From positions 4,162,501-4,226,500 of the forward strand of contig NZ_CP015093.1 in NCBI RefSeq assembly GCF_001975705.1: a stretch of 64,000 bases of DNA, in the 5' to 3' direction. The translations under genes and the position numbers were made by a program. The stretch is from Salipiger abyssi (GTDB lineage Bacteria; Pseudomonadota; Alphaproteobacteria; Rhodobacterales; Rhodobacteraceae). The notes under the pieces are model-generated. The model worked only from the letters and a program-made list of their open reading frames with translations, did no database searches and had not been told where the DNA came from. Shown here piece after piece: positions 57,404-64,000 of this stretch. How positions within the stretch are numbered: the first letter of the stretch is position 1; each line of letters begins with the position of its first letter.

Positions 57404-58411
57404 TCAGGCCGCCTCGGTCACCCGCATCAGCGCCTTTTCGATCAGTTCGGGCCCCACGCCGTCGCGCGTCGCCTCCTCCGACAGCACCCGCCGCCAGCCG
57501 CGCGCACCGGGACGGCCCGCGAAGAGCCCCAGCATGTGCCGGGTGATCTGATGCAGCCGCCCGCCCTGCGCCAGATGGCGCTCGATATAGGGCAGCATGG
57601 CGCGGGCAATGTCCTCGGGCGCCTTGGCCTCCGCCGCAGCGCCATAGATCCGCGCATCCGCCCCGGCGAGGATCTCCCAGGGCTTGTGATAGGCGGCGCG
57701 CCCAATCATCACCCCGTCGAGCCCCTCCTCCAGCAGCGCCTGCGCGGCTTCGAGACTGTCGATGCCACCATTGATCGAGATCTCGAGCTCCGGGAAGGCC
57801 CGCTTCATCTCCACCACCAGCGGATAGTCGAGCGGCGGGATATCGCGGTTTTCCTTGGGGCTGAGCCCTTGCAGCCAGGCCTTGCGCGCATGGATCGTCA
57901 CCTTGCGGCACCCTGCCCCGGCAACCTTTTCGACAAAGCGCGGCAGCACCTCGCGCGGCTCCTGATCGTCGACCCCGATGCGGCATTTCACGCTCACCTC
58001 GATGCCCACCGCCGCGCGCATGGCAGCGACGCAGTCGGCCACCAGCTCGGGCGTCTTCATCAGCACCGCGCCGAACGTGCCCGACTGCACCCGGTCCGAC
58101 GGGCAGCCGCAATTGAGGTCGACCTGATCGTATCCCGCCTGCTCACCAAGCCGCGCCGCCTCGGCCAGTTCCTGCGGCTCCGACCCGCCCAGTTGCAGCA
58201 CGACGGGATGTTCCTCGGGGCTGAAATCGAGCAGATGCAGCGCCCCACCCCGCACCAGCGCGGGGGCGGTGACCATCTCGGTATGGAGCAGCGTCTGCCG
58301 CGACAGCAGCCGGTGGAAATACCGGCAATGCCGGTCGGTCCAGTCCATCATGGGCGCGACGGACAGACGGGAAGCCGTTGATATCTCCTTTTTTCTTTTT
58401 TTCTCAGCCAC
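57404..58411 (-). CDS. dusA: tRNA-dihydrouridine(20/20a) synthase DusA
   Basis: FMN enzyme reducing U20/U20a in the tRNA D-loop; 335 residues. SVAPMMDWTDRHCRYFHRLL is the DusA N-terminal motif; LNCGCPSDRVQSGTFGAVLM contains the catalytic Cys; SINGGIDS and VMIGRAAYHKPW bind FMN phosphate. The start is GTG 58411 and the first 13 residues are lysine-rich (MAEKKRKKEISTA), not typical of the family. This would fit an island that has replaced the 5' end of dusA and supplied a new start, as known for dusA-specific integrases. Confidence 0.95.
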   Translation of the reverse strand: MAEKKRKKEISTASRLSVAPMMDWTDRHCRYFHRLLSRQTLLHTEMVTAPALVRGGALHLLDFSPEEHPVVLQLGGSEPQELAEAARLGEQAGYDQVDLNCGCPSDRVQSGTFGAVLMKTPELVADCVAAMRAAVGIEVSVKCRIGVDDQEPREVLPRFVEKVAGAGCRKVTIHARKAWLQGLSPKENRDIPPLDYPLVVEMKRAFPELEISINGGIDSLEAAQALLEEGLDGVMIGRAAYHKPWEILAGADARIYGAAAEAKAPEDIARAMLPYIERHLAQGGRLHQITRHMLGLFAGRPGARGWRRVLSEEATRDGVGPELIEKALMRVTEAA

Positions 58412-58450
58412 TTCGGCGCACCTTCAGCTCGTCTCGTTTCCGCTCATTAT

Positions 58451-58518
58451 GGACCAAATCAGTCGATTTTGACACTGGATTTGGTCCTGTGGACCAAATA
58501 CAGTTCCATGGACCAAAT
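58451..58518. repeat. cluster of GGACCAAAT sites ahead of the integrase
   Basis: Direct copies at 58451-58459, 58491-58499 and 58510-58518 and one inverted copy (ATTTGGTCC) at 58479-58487. The last copy overlaps the integrase ribosome binding region. The layout fits binding sites for the recombinase, an excisionase or an autoregulator. Confidence 0.8.
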
Positions 58519-58530
58519 GGGGAGACCATC

Positions 58531-59601
58531 ATGGGCTCGATCACCACGCGCAAACGCAAGGATGGACATAACAGCTACAGGGCACGTGTACGAGTGATGC
58601 GCGAGGGCACCGTCTATCATGAGACGAAGACTTTTGACAGACGTCCAGCTGCGACCGCCTGGATAAAGAAACGCGAGAAAGAGCTAGCAAGACCTGGTGC
58701 GCTGGAAGAGTTGAACGCATCCGATCCCCCGCTGTCCAAAGCGATCGAGCGCTATACCGAGGAAGCCGTGAAGGACATCGGCCGCACGAAAGCGCAGGTC
58801 CTCAGGACCATCACCACCTACCCGATCGCCGATCTGCCCTGCTCCACCATCAAGGCGAAGGATATCATCGAGTTCCTTCAGTCACTGCCTGGACAACCGC
58901 AAACCGTCGGGAACTACGCGAGCCATCTCGCCTCCATTTTCGCCATAGCCCGACCGATGTGGGACTTTCGACTGGATGACCGGGAGATGAGAGACGCGAT
59001 CACCGTCGCGCGCCGCATGGGGATCATCTCCCGTTCTGCGCAGCGGAACCGCAGGCCCACCCTTGATGAACTCGACCGGCTGCTGGCCCACTTCATTGAT
59101 CGGCGCCAGAGAACGCCTCAAGCCATGCCCATGCACAAGGTGATCGTTTTCGCTCTCTTCTCGACGCGCCGACAGGCAGAGATCACCCGGCTCACCTGGG
59201 ATGACTTTCAGAAGGAGCACAAGCGCATCCTGGTCCGCGACATGAAGCATCCCGGCGAAAAACTCGGAAACGATACCTGGGTCGATCTGCCTGAGGAGGC
59301 CATTCGGGTCATCGACAGTATGCGCAAGAGCAAGGCTGAGATCTTCCCCTACTCCCCGGACGCGATCACGACCAACTTCACACGCGCTTGCAAGCTACTC
59401 GGGATCGAGGATCTGCACTTCCACGATCTGCGCCACGAAGGCATTTCCCGGTTGTTCGAGATGGGTTGGAACATCCCCCATGTCGCGGCGGTCAGCGGAC
59501 ACAGGTCTTGGGTTAGCCTGAAACGCTATACGCACATCCGAGAAACAGGCGACAAATATGCAAACTGGCCGGGAATGCAGGTCGCAATCGACAGAGCCTG
59601 A
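58531..59601 (+). CDS. tyrosine recombinase (site-specific integrase)
   Basis: A 356-residue phage-type integrase. The N-terminal arm-binding domain starts MGSITTRKRKDGHNSYRARV; a core-binding SAM-like domain covers about residues 65-165. Catalytic residues are visible: Arg in FALFSTRRQAEITRLTWDDF, His-x-x-Arg in HFHDLRHEGISRLFEMGW, His in VSGHRSWVSLKRYTHI and the nucleophile Tyr in KRYTH. ATG 58531 has GGGGAGACC upstream; longer upstream reading has no SD. No excisionase gene is apparent. Confidence 0.93.
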   Translation: MGSITTRKRKDGHNSYRARVRVMREGTVYHETKTFDRRPAATAWIKKREKELARPGALEELNASDPPLSKAIERYTEEAVKDIGRTKAQVLRTITTYPIADLPCSTIKAKDIIEFLQSLPGQPQTVGNYASHLASIFAIARPMWDFRLDDREMRDAITVARRMGIISRSAQRNRRPTLDELDRLLAHFIDRRQRTPQAMPMHKVIVFALFSTRRQAEITRLTWDDFQKEHKRILVRDMKHPGEKLGNDTWVDLPEEAIRVIDSMRKSKAEIFPYSPDAITTNFTRACKLLGIEDLHFHDLRHEGISRLFEMGWNIPHVAAVSGHRSWVSLKRYTHIRETGDKYANWPGMQVAIDRA

Positions 59602-59702
59602 GCTCAGCCCGCCTTGCCGAAGGTTCCCCAGCCTGAAACTTTGAAGGAAGCTCAAATAGGCCACACTCCAAGCGATCTGCCTTCAAATTATCGAAGTATC
59701 GT

Positions 59703-59720
59703 TGGTTGCGGGGGCAGGAT
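59703..59720 (-). other. tRNA-fMet 3'-end-like fragment, possible attachment-site remnant
   Basis: On the minus strand it reads ATCCTGCCCCCGCAACCA, the T-stem, acceptor and CCA end expected of an alphaproteobacterial initiator tRNA. No other tRNA part is attached. It lies 101 bases behind the integrase stop. Confidence 0.45.
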
Positions 59721-60000
59721 CTGATCACAACTTGCGCCCCGAGCAAGTAAAGATGGTTGCGGGAGGGCGCACCCATCATAACTTGCCACTGGACGGTCGG
59801 CCCATGGGGCCAGATGATGTTAGAGATGTATCTAAGAAAATTGCGATGGTTGTGGGGATTTCCCGCGGTCTGGAATTGCTATTTCGAGCGGTAGCTTAGC
59901 CTTGGCGGAAACGCGACAGCACTCTTGAGCGCTGCCCTCCGAAGGTGGAGGTTTAAATCCCGATAACGCGTCACTACTTCGTTGGTCTTTCAAACAACGT

Positions 60001-60034
60001 AAGAAACTACCGGCCCCGTTCGCGGGGCCGGTAG
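60001..60034 (-). terminator. terminator of the hsp20-SPW operon
   Basis: Twelve-pair stem CTACCGGCCCCG/CGGGGCCGGTAG around a four-base loop, followed on the minus strand by TTTCTTA, six bases past the SPW gene's stop. Confidence 0.85.
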
Positions 60035-60039
60035 CCAAA

Positions 60040-60402
60040 TTAGGCTGTCAGAGCAGAATTCCCACCGTCGTTCTTCCAGCGCCGCCAGGCGGGAAAGGCC
60101 AGCGCGAGCACGCCGAGGGCCACATGGGCAAGCGCGATACTGAGCGTGAAGCCGGCTACGAGAGCCCATGGGCTGATCGCAGCCCAGACACCCGCAACCA
60201 TACGCGCCCAGTCAAGCCCTTCATGCGGTCGCCAAAGCGCAATTGCGGCAAGCACTGCGATCAGTCCTCCTGTCAGTAGGGCGCTCCAGAAGGCAATATC
60301 GGTCATCGTGACGACGAAGGGCAACCCAGCGAGGGCTAGGCCCGCGAGAAGGCTGATGCCGTCGCCAAGCTTGTCATAGTTCGTGGTCCAGGTCTTGCTC
60401 AT
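60040..60402 (-). CDS. SPW repeat membrane protein
   Basis: A 120-residue protein with four transmembrane helices and one clear SPW-type motif, GVWAAISPWALVAG, near residue 70; the first half has the matching helix pair. SPW proteins are small membrane proteins of unknown function found with stress genes. A near-perfect SD (AAGGAGGT) precedes the ATG. It is the last gene of the minus-strand run starting with hsp20, 30 bases after the omega-like gene. Confidence 0.8.
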   Translation of the reverse strand: MSKTWTTNYDKLGDGISLLAGLALAGLPFVVTMTDIAFWSALLTGGLIAVLAAIALWRPHEGLDWARMVAGVWAAISPWALVAGFTLSIALAHVALGVLALAFPAWRRWKNDGGNSALTA

Positions 60403-60432
60403 GGTGTTACCTCCTTTCTCTTCACCAGGGAT

Positions 60433-60672
60433 TCAATGCGGCCGAGCCAGCCGCTTGGGCGCCGGCGCAGGCAGGAAGGGCAACAGCTCCTCCTGCGAAA
60501 TCGCACCGGTCGCGATCTCTTCCAAGGCAAGCTCTTCGGTTGCTTGCCGTTTAGGTTCGACCCGCGGTTCTGCCCCGGCCCTCAGCGCCCGGCTGCGGGC
60601 GCTCGCGGCGAGGACCAGTGCGAAACGATCGGGCACCGCCTGCTGGGCATCAATTGCAACGAAGGGATTCAT
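60433..60672 (-). CDS. RNA polymerase omega subunit-like small protein
   Basis: A 79-residue protein. VPDRFALVLAASARSRALRA, then LALEEIATGAI, matches the core of RpoZ (V-P-N-R-F-x-L-V-x-x-A-x-x-R-A and the A-L-x-E-I-A helix). The genuine alphaproteobacterial omega is longer at its ends and normally lies beside spoT or recG, so this is a second, divergent copy or an omega mimic. The tail is proline-rich (EELLPFLPAPAPKRLARPH). Its ATG overlaps the stop of the upstream NDUFS4-like gene (ATGA). Functional incorporation into polymerase is unproven. Confidence 0.65.
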   Translation of the reverse strand: MNPFVAIDAQQAVPDRFALVLAASARSRALRAGAEPRVEPKRQATEELALEEIATGAISQEELLPFLPAPAPKRLARPH

Positions 60673-61400
60673 GCCGCCCTCCCTTCCTCAACGGATGGAT
60701 ACAATCCGTCGGCGGCCACCGCCGCTTCAAGCGCCAACAGCGCTCGTTCAACCTCGGCAAACTGCGATGCACGCTGGTTTTCCGGCATGCCTTCGGTGCT
60801 GGCGACATCCTGAAGATACTCCGTGTAGGCCCAGTTCATCAGGATAGAACGGCGAGCCTCCAACGACAGGCTGGCGTCCGAAGCAACTTCAATGGGAGAA
60901 CGCCCATCATCGCCGCCTTTCGGATCGCCCCGCCGTTTTGCGCCGGCCATCGCGTCACGATAGGTTTGCCGCATCTCGGACAGTCCGAGCCGAGAGAGCG
61001 TGGCATCGGACCACAGCCCGGCCTGCCTGTCCCGTGCCCGGGCGGCACGGCGCGCGGCTTCGCCTGCCGGCAGATGCACCTCGTAAGCCACCCCCAGACG
61101 CTTTGCATGGCGAATAGCGGCTTCCAGCGTCGGAAAGCTAAGGTCTATCTGCTGGATCGTGTCGTCGCCACCCGTCCAGCCCATCAAAGGCTCGAGCCAA
61201 GGACCGGTCCGGCGTGGAAAGCTCATCTTCCAGCCCTTCGTACGCGTGCGCCCCGAGGTCATCGCCGATTTCGACGGTTTCCATATCCGGGCGACCGCAT
61301 CGTCCGGCAGAGAAGAGTCCCAGTCTGGTCGCGAACCGGCCTGACTCAGAATGGGTGATACATGTGATTGTCCTGTGAAATCTCCGCTGATCACGTTCAT
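60669..61400 (-). CDS. NDUFS4-like domain fused to a second small-domain family
   Basis: A 243-residue protein. Residues 35-112 resemble the complex I accessory subunit NDUFS4: ARIWKPSKSAMTSGRTRTKG, then PLMGWTGGDDTIQQIDLSFP and AIRHAKRLGVAYEV. From about residue 165 the sequence SPIEVASDASLSLEARRSIL, then NWAYTEYLQDVASTEGMPE, resembles a separate family of roughly 80-residue proteins often found in alphaproteobacterial stress clusters (my recollection). There is no membrane segment. GGAGGC precedes the ATG. Placed between hsp20 and the omega-like gene, it is unlikely to be part of the normal nuo operon. Confidence 0.65.
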   Translation of the reverse strand: MNVISGDFTGQSHVSPILSQAGSRPDWDSSLPDDAVARIWKPSKSAMTSGRTRTKGWKMSFPRRTGPWLEPLMGWTGGDDTIQQIDLSFPTLEAAIRHAKRLGVAYEVHLPAGEAARRAARARDRQAGLWSDATLSRLGLSEMRQTYRDAMAGAKRRGDPKGGDDGRSPIEVASDASLSLEARRSILMNWAYTEYLQDVASTEGMPENQRASQFAEVERALLALEAAVAADGLYPSVEEGRAA

Positions 61401-61430
61401 CTCTTAGCCTCCAGATTGCAGGAAGGGCGT

Positions 61431-61453
61431 CCGGCCGCCACCCGAGCGGCCGG
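61431..61453 (-). promoter_or_regulatory. intercistronic hairpin after hsp20
   Basis: Eight-pair stem CCGGCCGC/GCGGCCGG with a seven-base loop and no T tail, between the hsp20 stop and the next ATG. It could protect the hsp20 mRNA 3' end or cause partial termination. Confidence 0.45.
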
Positions 61454-61480
61454 AACGTCCCGTTCTGGGTCCAAGCTGGT

Positions 61481-61978
61481 TCAGGCCGCGACCGGTTCCG
61501 GCTCTGGAGCTGTCTCGAGCTGCCTGGTCTCGAGACCCTCGGTCGCCTCAGCCGACGCGATCTCGATCCGACGCGGTTTGAGTTCCTCGGGGATCTCGCG
61601 CTTGAGCTCGACGGTCAGCAAGCCGTTCGACAGCGTGGCCGCTTCGACCCGGACGTGATCGGCCAGTTCGAACCGACGTTCAAACGACCGGCCGGCGATG
61701 CCACGATAGAGATAGCTGACACCGCCGTCACCTTCGGGCGTCTCCTTGCGGCCCGACACGATCAGCATGTTCTTGTCTTGGGTCAGGGTCAGATCGTCTT
61801 CGGCAAAGCCCGCCACCGCCATGTCGATGCGATAGTCGTCCTCGCCGGTCTTGACGATGTCATAAGGCGGCCAGTTGTCGAGCGTCTCCACTCGACGGGC
61901 TGTCTCGAGCGCGTCGAGCATACGGTCGAAGCCAACGCTCGAACGGAACAGAGGTGCAAAATCAAGTGTCGTTGCCAT
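61481..61978 (-). CDS. Hsp20/alpha-crystallin family small heat-shock protein
   Basis: A 165-residue IbpA-type holdase. The N-terminus LDFAPLFRSSVGFDRMLDAL is the proteobacterial IbpA pattern, and the alpha-crystallin domain covers about residues 35-135 with DDYRIDMAVAGFAEDDL and the conserved ADHVRVEAATLSNGLLTVEL. The tail RREIEI-type IxI anchor is present as RRIEIASAE; an acidic, Pro-rich extension follows (QLETAPEPEPVAA). ATG 61978 is preferred to 61984 because GGAGGA then lies eight bases upstream. It heads the minus-strand stress operon. Confidence 0.93.
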   Translation of the reverse strand: MATTLDFAPLFRSSVGFDRMLDALETARRVETLDNWPPYDIVKTGEDDYRIDMAVAGFAEDDLTLTQDKNMLIVSGRKETPEGDGGVSYLYRGIAGRSFERRFELADHVRVEAATLSNGLLTVELKREIPEELKPRRIEIASAEATEGLETRQLETAPEPEPVAA

Positions 61979-62190
61979 AGCCATATCCTCCTTTGAGCAA
62001 CATGGGTACAGACATCGGGAGCACCGCAGGAGCGATGTCCCGCTTTATGGCCGATCCCCATCTGGGCGATCTGCATAAAGTGATTTGGAACAGCACCTTA
62101 CGGTTTCAAGAGGATGCTCGGAAACTTTTTTCTACGAACAGCTCTCCTATATTTCTCTTGCTTCCTTGTAGCATTCGAAAGGAGGAGATC

Positions 62191-62415
62191 ATGACCGAAA
62201 ACGACGTGAAAAGCATCCTGGGTCCCGGCACGGACCCCACGCTTCTGTCTGATATTCTGCGCACCGGCGCCGACGCCTCCGAACTTGCCTGTGCCAAGGC
62301 CTGGGTCGAGGCGGACGAGGCGCAGGTCGATGCCCATAGCCCCTTCCCATCGGGCCGGGTCGCCCGGCTGGTCGAATTGCTCGAAGCCGATCAGGAAGAA
62401 GATGATCTGCAGTAG
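62191..62415 (+). CDS. acidic 74-residue protein of unknown function
   Basis: Start ATG 62191 with a strong SD (AAAGGAGGAGAT). The product is strongly acidic (about 18 Asp/Glu, few basic residues): GADASELACAKAWVEADEAQ and LVELLEADQEEDDLQ at the end. It is predicted to be mostly helical, with no membrane segment. It is divergent from hsp20 across 212 bases that probably hold heat-responsive promoters for both, and convergent with the glycosidase gene. I do not recognise a family. Confidence 0.7.
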   Translation: MTENDVKSILGPGTDPTLLSDILRTGADASELACAKAWVEADEAQVDAHSPFPSGRVARLVELLEADQEEDDLQ

Positions 62416-62457
62416 CAGAAATCGGGCTGGCGCAGACGATGGCGCCAGCCCGTCCCT

Positions 62458-64000
62458 TCAGGTGGTCACAATAACCCGAACCGGTCCGTCGCGACGCAGA
62501 ACATCGGCAACCACGTGGGTGCCAGACCGGCGCAGAGCCACATCGACGGATCCACCATCAAGGCGGAGATTGCGCAGCACGACCTCTCCCAGAAACTCCG
62601 GAAGGATCGGTTGCTCGAAGATCACCTGCCGCGCCTCGGCGTCGAAGCGCAGCCCGAGACAGGCCTGAAGCAGCAAAAGCGGCGCTCCCGCCGCCCAGGC
62701 CTGCGGCGTACAGGCCACCGGATAGAAGGTGGGGCCTTGCGTCTCGCGGCGCGGGAAGCCGCAGAACAACTCCGGCAACCGTCGCAGGTCGATATAGGTG
62801 GCCGCAGAGAAGATGCCCTCGAAAATCCGTGCGGCCTCTTCACGGAACCCGTAGCGCGCCAACCCCGCCCCGATCAGCGCATTGTCATGGGGCCAGACCG
62901 ACCCGTTGTGATAGCTCATCGGATTGTACCGTGCCTGACCCGCGGCAATGGTCCGCACTCCCCATCCGCAGAAAGACGACGGCCCCATCAGGGCTCGAAC
63001 GACCGTTTCGGCGCGCTCCTCCGGGACGATTCCCGTCCAGAGCAGATGGCCCGCGTTCGAACTGCGTACTCGGCAGGGCCGTTTGTCACCATCGAGGGCG
63101 AGCACATAGGTTCCAAGCTCATCGTCCCAGAACGCCGCGTCAAAACGGGACTTCAATTCCGAGGCCTTTTGCGCCTGTTCCTCCGCGATCCCGTCATGAC
63201 CGAGTTCCCGTGCGATCTCGGACGCAGCCAGCCGGGCAGCATAGACGTAGCCCTGTACCTCGCATAGCGCGATCGGCCCCTTGGCCAGCGTCCCATCGGC
63301 GTGAAACACCGCATCATGACTGTCCTTCCACCCCTGGTTGGCGAGCCCCTTGTCGCTGCGCCTCCCGTATTCCACGAAACCGTCGCCGTCCCGATCGCCA
63401 TAGGTCTCGATCCAGTCGAGCGCCGCACAGACATGCGGCCAGAGTGTTTCCAGCACCACCCGATTGCCGGTGCGTTCGAAATACGCCCCGGCGAGCATCA
63501 CGAACAGCGGTGTCGAATCCACGCTGCCGTAATAGCGCCGGAACGGAACTTCGCCGGTTTCCGCCATTTCGCCATAACGCACTTCATGAAGGATCTTGCC
63601 TGGCTCGGCATCGGTATCCGGATCGAATTCCGTCGCCTGGTTGGCCGCAAGATGCAGTAAAACGCCCCGCGCGACCGCCGGGTCGAGCCAGAGCATTTCC
63701 CAGGCGGTGATCAGAGCATCGCGCCCGAACACGGTGCTGAACCAGGGCACGCCCGCATAGGGATAGGGCCCCTCCTCCGTATCGGTCATGAGCATGTAGA
63801 GGTCCGAGACCGAACGGCGCATGGTCTCGTTGAATATCTCGTTGGAGCTTTGCACCGTGGCTGCGCGGGAAGAAGAACGTCTGAGTGCGCGGCGCGCGTC
63901 CCGCAACGAGCGGAAAAACAGGCGCGACGGAGGATCCTCAGCCCCATTCACGTCGCAGCCGATCTCGATAAAGAGCGAACGCGTTTCGCCGGGGGCGAGG
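62458..64000 (-). CDS. glycogen-debranching/amylo-alpha-1,6-glucosidase-like protein, 5' end outside window
   Basis: At least 514 residues of a larger protein; the frame is open through the right edge. The visible part is an (alpha/alpha)6 glycosidase domain with PWFSTVFGRDALITAWEMLW, NQGWKDSHDAVFHADGTLAK, YNPMSYHNGSVWPHDNALIG and CTPQAWAAGAPLLLLQACLG, all typical of GDE-C-like proteins. The upstream residues (LAPGETRSLFIEIGCDVNG) belong to the glycogen-debranching N-terminal beta domain. The substrate is probably an alpha-glucan or trehalose-type storage compound; that is inference. Whether it is island cargo is unclear. Confidence 0.85.
   Translation of the reverse strand, partial: LAPGETRSLFIEIGCDVNGAEDPPSRLFFRSLRDARRALRRSSSRAATVQSSNEIFNETMRRSVSDLYMLMTDTEEGPYPYAGVPWFSTVFGRDALITAWEMLWLDPAVARGVLLHLAANQATEFDPDTDAEPGKILHEVRYGEMAETGEVPFRRYYGSVDSTPLFVMLAGAYFERTGNRVVLETLWPHVCAALDWIETYGDRDGDGFVEYGRRSDKGLANQGWKDSHDAVFHADGTLAKGPIALCEVQGYVYAARLAASEIARELGHDGIAEEQAQKASELKSRFDAAFWDDELGTYVLALDGDKRPCRVRSSNAGHLLWTGIVPEERAETVVRALMGPSSFCGWGVRTIAAGQARYNPMSYHNGSVWPHDNALIGAGLARYGFREEAARIFEGIFSAATYIDLRRLPELFCGFPRRETQGPTFYPVACTPQAWAAGAPLLLLQACLGLRFDAEARQVIFEQPILPEFLGEVVLRNLRLDGGSVDVALRRSGTHVVADVLRRDGPVRVIVTT

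Follow-up and report, generated by a model that had tools for sequence, protein, structure and literature searches.

A tyrosine recombinase and heat-stress genes beside dusA in Salipiger abyssi: the probable left end of a dusA-specific, putatively conjugative element with two stress clusters

Why do a tyrosine recombinase and a group of heat-stress genes stand against the 5′ end of dusA, the gene for tRNA-dihydrouridine synthase A, in Salipiger abyssi? The window analysed here is a stretch of 64,000 nucleotides (C5:4162501-4226500, where C5 is contig NZ_CP015093.1 of a 5.26-Mb genome in 9 contigs), and the arrangement occupies its right end. An earlier note on this DNA had proposed an island from 58.4 kb to beyond 64 kb. 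The island itself stood, with its limits redrawn: the left edge lies at 58344-58351, inside dusA, rather than at 58412, and the right edge is at C5:81972, far outside the window. Window positions 58344-64000 are very probably the left end of a dusA-specific, putatively conjugative element of ~107.5 kb, here called unit 1, which carries transfer genes and two stress clusters (A and B). The cargo genes of unit 1 were taken from our own gene call, and positions beyond the window are given either on C5 or in J coordinates, which have their origin at C5:4220001 and are continued over the record seam.

The gene dusA (57404-58411, − strand) begins with GTG and matches the NCBIfam model NF008774 (DusA) at 498.7 bits. 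As the earlier note had read it, the recombinase gene int1 adjoins and diverges from dusA: it lies ~120 bp away (58531-59601, + strand) and encodes a protein of 356 aa that matches Pfam PF00589 (Phage_integrase; 66.5 bits). An attachment (att) site, attL, was located inside dusA at 58338-58360 (C5:4220838, + strand). Two further copies with this orientation lie at C5:81972 and C5:130926, so that the direct repeat of the dusA 5′ end, which the note had suggested seeking beyond 64000, was found twice. When a 23-base att pattern was run over the 176-kb stretch, it fitted with 0 substitutions at dusA, 2 at C5:81972 and 1 at C5:130926, while the next best places required 4-5; this fit, in one orientation, argues that the three sites are not chance. 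A relaxed pattern, written after the C5:81972 site had been seen, does fit that site, against 0 matches expected in L039, part of the second island described below. A stricter 28-base pattern (≤3 mismatches) returned the dusA and C5:130926 sites only, and its reversed control had 0 matches in the genome. Measured between these sites, unit 1 spans 107,524 bp and unit 2 spans 48,954 bp, with the third site ~156 kb from dusA. Both far repeats lie past the record seam (C5:4246390/1). DNA of Roseovarius halotolerans is continuous over this seam (399/404 columns), within a trbE-like gene, and C5 was therefore taken as circular. The GC content of the island is 62.3%, as compared to 67.7% in the window to its left.

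Copies of the element in other hosts allowed the crossover to be located within the repeat. At repeat position 6, Salipiger marinus has G on the dusA side and A on the far side; at position 15, both S. marinus and R. halotolerans have G on the dusA side and C on the far side. Because the repeats differ at positions 6 and 15, the crossover falls in positions 7-14 (TCCATCAT, window 58344-58351), which, from the sequences, places the recombination point at the codons of M21, M22 and D23 of dusA. Residues 1-20 of DusA are thus made by the island. The earlier note had marked the first 13 residues of DusA as lysine-rich and atypical; the protein does start MAEKKRKKEISTA, with 6 of 13 residues K or R, but the foreign part is larger, as the crossover indicates. 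The island-supplied coding segment (58352-58411, − strand) is K-rich, contains the GTG start and is identical in 4 hosts. In each of the 17 integrase-bearing loci chosen for comparison an in-frame start was found, giving a DusA N-terminus of 23-24 residues, counted as far as the W of MMDW; island-made protein starts of the close Int1 group are K-rich (e.g. MAEKKRKKEISTASRLSVAPMMDW, MTDEIKKYDLSKASRLSVAPMMDW). The element has replaced the dusA start by its own in-frame 5′ end, start codon included, and constraint probably acts on this island-made coding segment.

In R. halotolerans the sequence at the far end, after island 1, is MSEERARQGGAHIRRAARLSVAPMMDW. Compared with the dusA 5′ flanks of three Salipiger genomes that have no integrase there (L010, L012, L023), this DNA shows 76% identity over 131-183 bp. 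The far end of island 2 in Allosediminivita pacifica is 78-82% identical over 148-182 bp to the same three flanks. Both are native-like dusA starts. An upstream Lrp/AsnC-type gene, which adjoins dusA in some relatives, was searched for in the S. abyssi genome to mark the native flank and gave distant paralogues only (the best three at 40-41% identity); accordingly, the native dusA flank of this strain was not found.

Across the family, relatives of Int1 (E ≤ 1e-60) occurred in 33 of 295 genomes, and 28 of the 30 loci fetched were divergent from dusA at 90-505 bp; in the other 2 dusA was not found in the flank. Int1 belongs to a family of dusA-neighbouring recombinases. The gene is full length, and its protein is identical to the copies in three other hosts. 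One genome (G571) carries two related genes, the first identical to A. pacifica Int1 and a second Int1-like gene (95%) at C33:35265-36326. Among 41 genomes searched, a DusA orthologue was present in 19 of the 20 from the same genus, S. abyssi and also Salipiger marinus DSM 26424 (G016) and S. pentaromativorans P9 (G004) included; G002 had a distant paralogue only. A tyrosine recombinase, called by similarity to Int1 or by a shared N-terminus, was located ≤1.5 kb upstream of dusA in 10 of the 19, full length in 9 and shortened, then followed by transposase-like sequence, in 1 (G012). The relatives with an empty site that the earlier note had asked for are at hand: within the same 1.5 kb no integrase was recognised in 9 of the 19 by tblastn with Int1 and by the three longest upstream open reading frames (ORFs), a search that a very divergent integrase could escape.

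A genome scan was made with one cargo protein of cluster A, a fusion containing an NDUFS4 domain, as query. It returned 16 loci, 11 rhodobacterial and 5 of Hyphomicrobiales type, the latter at 52-55%. In 3 of the 16 (A. pacifica, S. marinus and R. halotolerans), Int1 and the fetched part of cluster A showed 98-100% protein identity and stood beside a host dusA that is 71-78% identical. The comparison with S. marinus is abrupt at the att site: 80% identity within dusA up to the site, then 99.7-100% over 20.5 kb. R. halotolerans, whose DusA is 71% identical to that of S. abyssi, carries its island between C3:719275 and C3:616236, 103,039 bp between repeats, and over J844-42914 the two elements differ at 16 positions, of which 7 fall less than 300 bp from the C5 seam. 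With near-identical copies in at least three genera, the element appears to have spread recently and almost unchanged between different bacterial genera. Assembly contamination was considered and rejected, as the island is joined to the host's own dusA sequence in each case.

Cluster A was also found in other settings. It lies beside dusA with an integrase 34% identical to Int1 in Pseudodonghicola (L065), and beside dusA with an Int1 remnant in Frigidibacter (L066). In S. pentaromativorans and Roseovarius pacificus it shares a contig with dusA at ~31 kb and ~40 kb, respectively, on the side of another integrase type; this second type of dusA integrase (L054, L165) has 34% identity to Int1, and its copies in the two genera agree at 98.9%. 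The same stress cluster thus seems to ride dusA islands of two integrase types. Altogether cluster A was on the island side of dusA in 7 of the 11 rhodobacterial loci; for L059-L062 the fetched flanks were uninformative on the dusA side, L060 and L061 being shortened by contig ends. Separately, a region of Paracoccus pantotrophus (NZ_CP038206.1 344703-346562) with no annotated feature is 99.2% identical over 1.86 kb to part of the cluster A stress operon.

What does unit 1 carry? Stress clusters flank a trb operon on both sides. In the operon (J19234-28572), TrbF, TrbL, TrbJ and TrbB scored above their NCBIfam cut-offs, TrbC below, and a piece of TrbE scored 891 bits; genes at J19234-21380 were left out of the trb profile scan. 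After cluster B follow TraG (1165 bits, above the NCBIfam cut-off), an RlxS-like relaxase, a signal peptidase, a ParA-type protein, RepA and a protein with a RovC-type domain; RPA, ParA-type, Peptidase_S26 and DUF3363 (286.9 bits) domains were identified by Pfam. Integrase, relaxase, coupling protein and mating-pair genes, the set expected of an integrative and conjugative element (ICE), all lie within the att-bounded unit 1, the relaxase with its RlxS model under cut-off. Two pairs of 100% identical proteins in unit 1 (J44423-45295/J61484-62356 and J60499-61062/J65554-66117) suggest recent copying, and the right part of the unit (L038:7786-19587) encodes PbeA/PbeC-like and SspB/SspC/SspD-like proteins of phosphorothioate-type defence and a protein similar to ThsA.

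Cluster A (J2540-17813) comprises SPW, omega, NDUFS4-fusion and hsp20 genes, an ORF of 74 aa, a debranching-like glycosidase, a glycosyltransferase, a KefB-like antiporter, an NDUFS4-like gene (C5:4230017), a ClpK-like gene, FtsH, an M48 peptidase and three small heat shock proteins (sHSPs). Cluster B (J30346-42803) comprises FtsH, three sHSPs recognised by their similarity to those of cluster A, a ClpK-like gene, a DUF308/HdeD-like gene, NDUS4, YfdX, DegP/HtrA, GrpE, HtpX and TrkA_C. FtsH (786 bits), DegP/HtrA (492) and HtpX (387) were above cut-off; YfdX and DUF308 were found, the HdeD model scored 19.1 bits (cut-off 189) and the Kef-like antiporter was under its cut-off. Thioredoxin (Trx), PsiE and Cls were not detected among the unit 1 proteins scanned, a subset of the ORFs. 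The combination of sHSP20, ClpG/ClpK and FtsH occurs in both clusters (J10391-17813 and J30346-36908; ClpK by best match). Based on identities of 83% between the ClpK-like proteins and 73% between the FtsH proteins, A and B are old paralogues and not a recent duplication.

Within the window, cluster A opens with an operon on the − strand that reads, 5′ to 3′, hsp20, NDUFS4 fusion, omega-like gene, SPW gene; all four had been listed in the earlier note and all have profile support. The IbpA-like hsp20 (61481-61984; Pfam PF00011, 64.2 bits) scored 143.5 bits against NCBIfam IbpA, under the cut-off of 212. The fusion (60669-61400; 243 aa) joins an NDUFS4 domain (Pfam PF04800, 84.8 bits) to a helical C-terminal domain. 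Its stop codon overlaps the ATG of the RNA polymerase omega paralogue (60433-60672; 79 aa; Pfam PF01192, 36.5 bits), which scored above the cut-off of the rpoZ model TIGR00690 (28.8 vs 23.6 bits) and below that of NF001579 (34.9 vs 58). The SPW-repeat membrane protein (60040-60402; Pfam PF03779, 53.7 bits) is last. Divergent from the operon is the 74-aa ORF (62191-62415, + strand), conserved across loci (93-100% aa identity in the 11 rhodobacterial loci, 52% in L068 and L069), which had no match in Pfam or NCBIfam. A glycogen-debranching-like glycosidase of 741 aa (62458-64000, − strand; Pfam GDE_N_bis 219, MGH1-like_GH 95 bits) runs past the window end. In the gap between dusA and int1 (58450-58519) are four GGACCAAAT/ATTTGGTCC repeats, at 58451, 58479, 58491 and 58510 (J951, 979, 991 and 1010), with one extra exact copy within unit 1 at J86145; they are possible arm-type integrase sites or regulator sites. 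By eye, other integrase types have different repeats at the same position between dusA and int.

The hsp20 leader (61972-62073, − strand) is a full-length match to the ROSE RNA thermometer (Rfam RF00435; 53.3 bits, gathering 45), the sole Rfam match at gathering level in 146 kb scanned; ROSE was also present in 8 of 8 other loci searched. ROSE elements melt upon heating and expose the ribosome site. A promoter, CTTGAAA...CCAAATCA (62081-62110, − strand), which we take to be sigma-32-like, ends 7 bases upstream of ROSE. Both of its boxes are kept in the window and the 11 rhodobacterial loci, and similar boxes were seen by eye in the 5 Hyphomicrobiales-type loci; the motif was retained only because of this conservation and its position.

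Two omega genes are present in the S. abyssi genome; of its four NDUFS4-type genes, three lie within unit 1. Among the omega paralogues, the pattern RF-L---A--R-R is kept in 11 of 12 aligned sequences (L066 is without that part). In the fusion, profile matches to complex I NDUFS4 chains fall only within positions 28-126, and the C-terminal helices (residues 114-232) had no match in the PDB, which is weak evidence because the AlphaFold model is only moderate (mean pLDDT 68.8). The fusion itself was the query that yielded the 16 loci, and in every one of them an sHSP gene lies upstream and an omega-like gene downstream. As a control, of 28 loci with plain NDUFS4 genes (L106-L133), 0 had sHSP, ClpK or FtsH in the fetched 1.5-kb flanks; an omega-like piece does occur at one of them, L106 (44% identity over 39 aa). 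Within a class sample, full coverage of the fusion was seen in 1 of 289 genomes, S. abyssi itself, with one further partial match (G126/L105) that has neither sHSP nor omega neighbour. A search of 5.8 billion proteins yielded 245 relatives among 7996 scored candidates, and most of the 120 listed are 210-260 aa long, so the family of the fusion extends beyond islands.

Several observations tell against the reading of unit 1 as a conjugative element with a heat-regulated stress cargo. The strict 28-base att pattern misses C5:81972, the right edge of the unit. The far end in S. marinus (MKDHKPYRLSVAPMMDW) matches other dusA genes over 24-29 bp only. Against their NCBIfam cut-offs, RlxS (573 vs 850), TrbC (45.6 vs 211) and TraF (90 vs 100) fall short, as do the two ClpK-like proteins (J012 and J035; 1519 and 1557 bits to ClpK, cut-off 1900). 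Not every transfer gene is intact: trbE consists of two reading frames in the S. abyssi record, near the seam, a split that is possibly an assembly error at the record ends. From J45 to 89 kb the match with R. halotolerans is confined to blocks of 90-97%, and J89-108 kb has no counterpart there, which makes the element a mosaic. Folded as a single sequence, the hsp20 leader shows no unusual stability (z −1.43; 20 of 200 shuffles did equally well), and the sigma-32 motif is not enriched in the island (1 vs a mean of 0.78 in 50 mononucleotide shuffles).

Some of these observations would also fit an element that arrived as an ICE and has since lost transfer, so that S. abyssi holds a decaying, locked remnant. 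The split trbE, the mosaic right half and the fragmentary integrases of islands 2 and 3 are as that account would have them. However, int1 is full length, its protein is unchanged in three other hosts, and the differences in trbE are concentrated around the record seam, a likely place for an assembly error; we regard a locked remnant as possible though doubtful.

Those further islands raise a second alternative. Three att sites follow one another in tandem from this dusA, the first of them belonging to unit 1; a copper island and then a third remnant lie beyond the unit. Island 2 (C5:81972-130926; L039-L041) is 49 kb long and encodes two copper-type P-ATPases, CueR, a multicopper-oxidase-like protein and a CcmI domain. 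Beside C5:81972 the 3′ part of a decayed integrase remains, with 43% identity to Int1 over 97 aa, and beside C5:130926 an apparent integrase start is cut off before an IS3-type element (names by eye); island 3 may have lost its far end. In A. pacifica, island 1 is followed on its right by the left end of an island 2 relative, a junction at 93.75% over 0.7 kb to that of S. abyssi, and the right ends of island 2 in the two hosts have 99.66% identity over 11.3 kb; the island 1/2 and island 2/dusA-start junctions are on separate contigs. With islands 1 and 2 in the same order in both hosts, as far as separate-contig junctions can tell, and the island 2 end so similar, the whole array of stress ICE and copper island, ~156 kb between dusA and the third att site, might move as one composite via Int1. 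However, R. halotolerans has no island 2 between island 1 and a native-like dusA 5′ end, the dusA 5′ end that island 1 meets in S. marinus is a different one, and the island 1/2 junction is 93.75% identical to that of A. pacifica, so that movement as a composite is rather unlikely. Unit 1 as an element in its own right remains the preferred reading.

We infer both the mobility of this element and its function in heat. Int1 would catalyse integration and excision, and the element would move by conjugation. The stress clusters would act like the transmissible locus of stress tolerance (tLST) and shield the host against heat or oxidative protein damage. The operon of sHSP, NDUFS4 fusion, omega and SPW genes would be heat-induced, by a sigma-32-type promoter and by melting of the ROSE hairpin. 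A bolder proposal, which we think improbable as it stands, is that heat opens ROSE to yield the sHSP together with an omega paralogue that alters the polymerase and an NDUFS4-helical fusion that docks on or protects complex I: a mobile heat programme for transcription and respiration, beyond chaperones and proteases. It is also conceivable that the clusters mainly serve the element, folding its membrane transfer apparatus, rather than the heat tolerance of the host. The position of the trb operon between two stress clusters fits such a role, as does that of cluster A on the dusA island side in 7 of 11 rhodobacterial loci; yet homologous ClpK-FtsH blocks occur on many plasmids of other kinds, and the published tLST raises the tolerance of the host to heat and chlorine (PMC8290217), which makes this role very unlikely. 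Finally, that stress genes and recombinase are the ancestral gene order of the genus with no insertion, for which their adjacency alone speaks, is rejected as next to impossible, as 9 of 19 same-genus dusA genes have no recognised integrase upstream, 42 kb are near-identical across genera whose DusA is 71% identical, and the GC content of the island is lower.

A heat-tolerance locus is here tied to a defined, putatively self-transmissible vehicle with evidence on its integration site at the level of bases and near-identical copies in at least three genera, which makes its route of spread testable. The parts list of mobile stress loci gains NDUFS4 and omega paralogues under an RNA thermometer. 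And dusA appears as a site at which islands with heat-stress and copper genes are stacked, DusA being rebuilt each time.

How does unit 1 compare with known systems? The earlier note had named dusA as an integration target whose 5′ end is rebuilt, in agreement with the dusA-specific islands of Farrugia et al. (2015; PMC4482086). Those islands have an integrase next to dusA, semi-conserved direct repeats and 21-bp att sites, replace the dusA 5′ end and leave the original start at the far end; their cargo includes type IV secretion and metal resistance, and some genomes have several such integrases. Unit 1 shares the adjacent integrase, the bounding direct repeats and the new in-frame dusA 5′ end, and a displaced, native-like end is seen in two hosts, R. 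halotolerans and, beyond island 2, A. pacifica. It differs as a 107.5-kb, trb-type putative ICE with two heat-stress clusters and tandem att sites; the word tandem is absent from the main text of PMC4482086, and heat-shock cargo is unnamed in the parts examined. With trb/RlxS-type (IncP-like) systems it shares TrbB, TrbE, TrbF, TrbJ, TrbL, TraG, an RlxS-like relaxase, a TraF-like peptidase, a ParA-type protein and RepA, and it differs from them by the dusA site and the heat-stress cargo. With other ROSE (RF00435) elements it shares the position in an sHSP-gene leader, although here the operon behind ROSE also encodes an NDUFS4 fusion, an omega paralogue and SPW and belongs to a mobile element.

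The tLST was defined by Kamal et al. (2021), whose paper reports increased heat and chlorine tolerance of the host and the presence of the homeostasis part in some alpha-proteobacteria (PMC8290217); the words dusA, integrase, conjugative and NADH are absent from its main text. Unit 1 shares with it the sHSP20s, a ClpK/ClpG-type disaggregase, FtsH, YfdX, DegP and HtpX, and may share an HdeD-like protein and Kef/Trk-type proteins, at a GC content of 62.5-63.5% as compared to ~61% published. The clpK region has 81% DNA identity to Paracoccus yeei plasmids and 77% to Klebsiella clpK, the latter short of the >80% expected with the beta/gamma-proteobacterial locus; for this reason, and because the ClpK-like proteins score under the ClpK cut-off, unit 1 was not filed as a classical tLST. 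It differs further in having two clusters per element, extra NDUFS4-like proteins, an omega paralogue, SPW, GrpE and glycan enzymes. Literature searches, limited to these words and to one library, returned no paper joining dusA, small heat shock and integrative conjugative element, and none joining an NDUFS4-type protein (ETC complex I subunit) with Hsp20. Both dusA islands and the tLST are thus known kinds; what appears to be new is a dusA-specific putative ICE with two diverged clusters that are, in parts, tLST-like.

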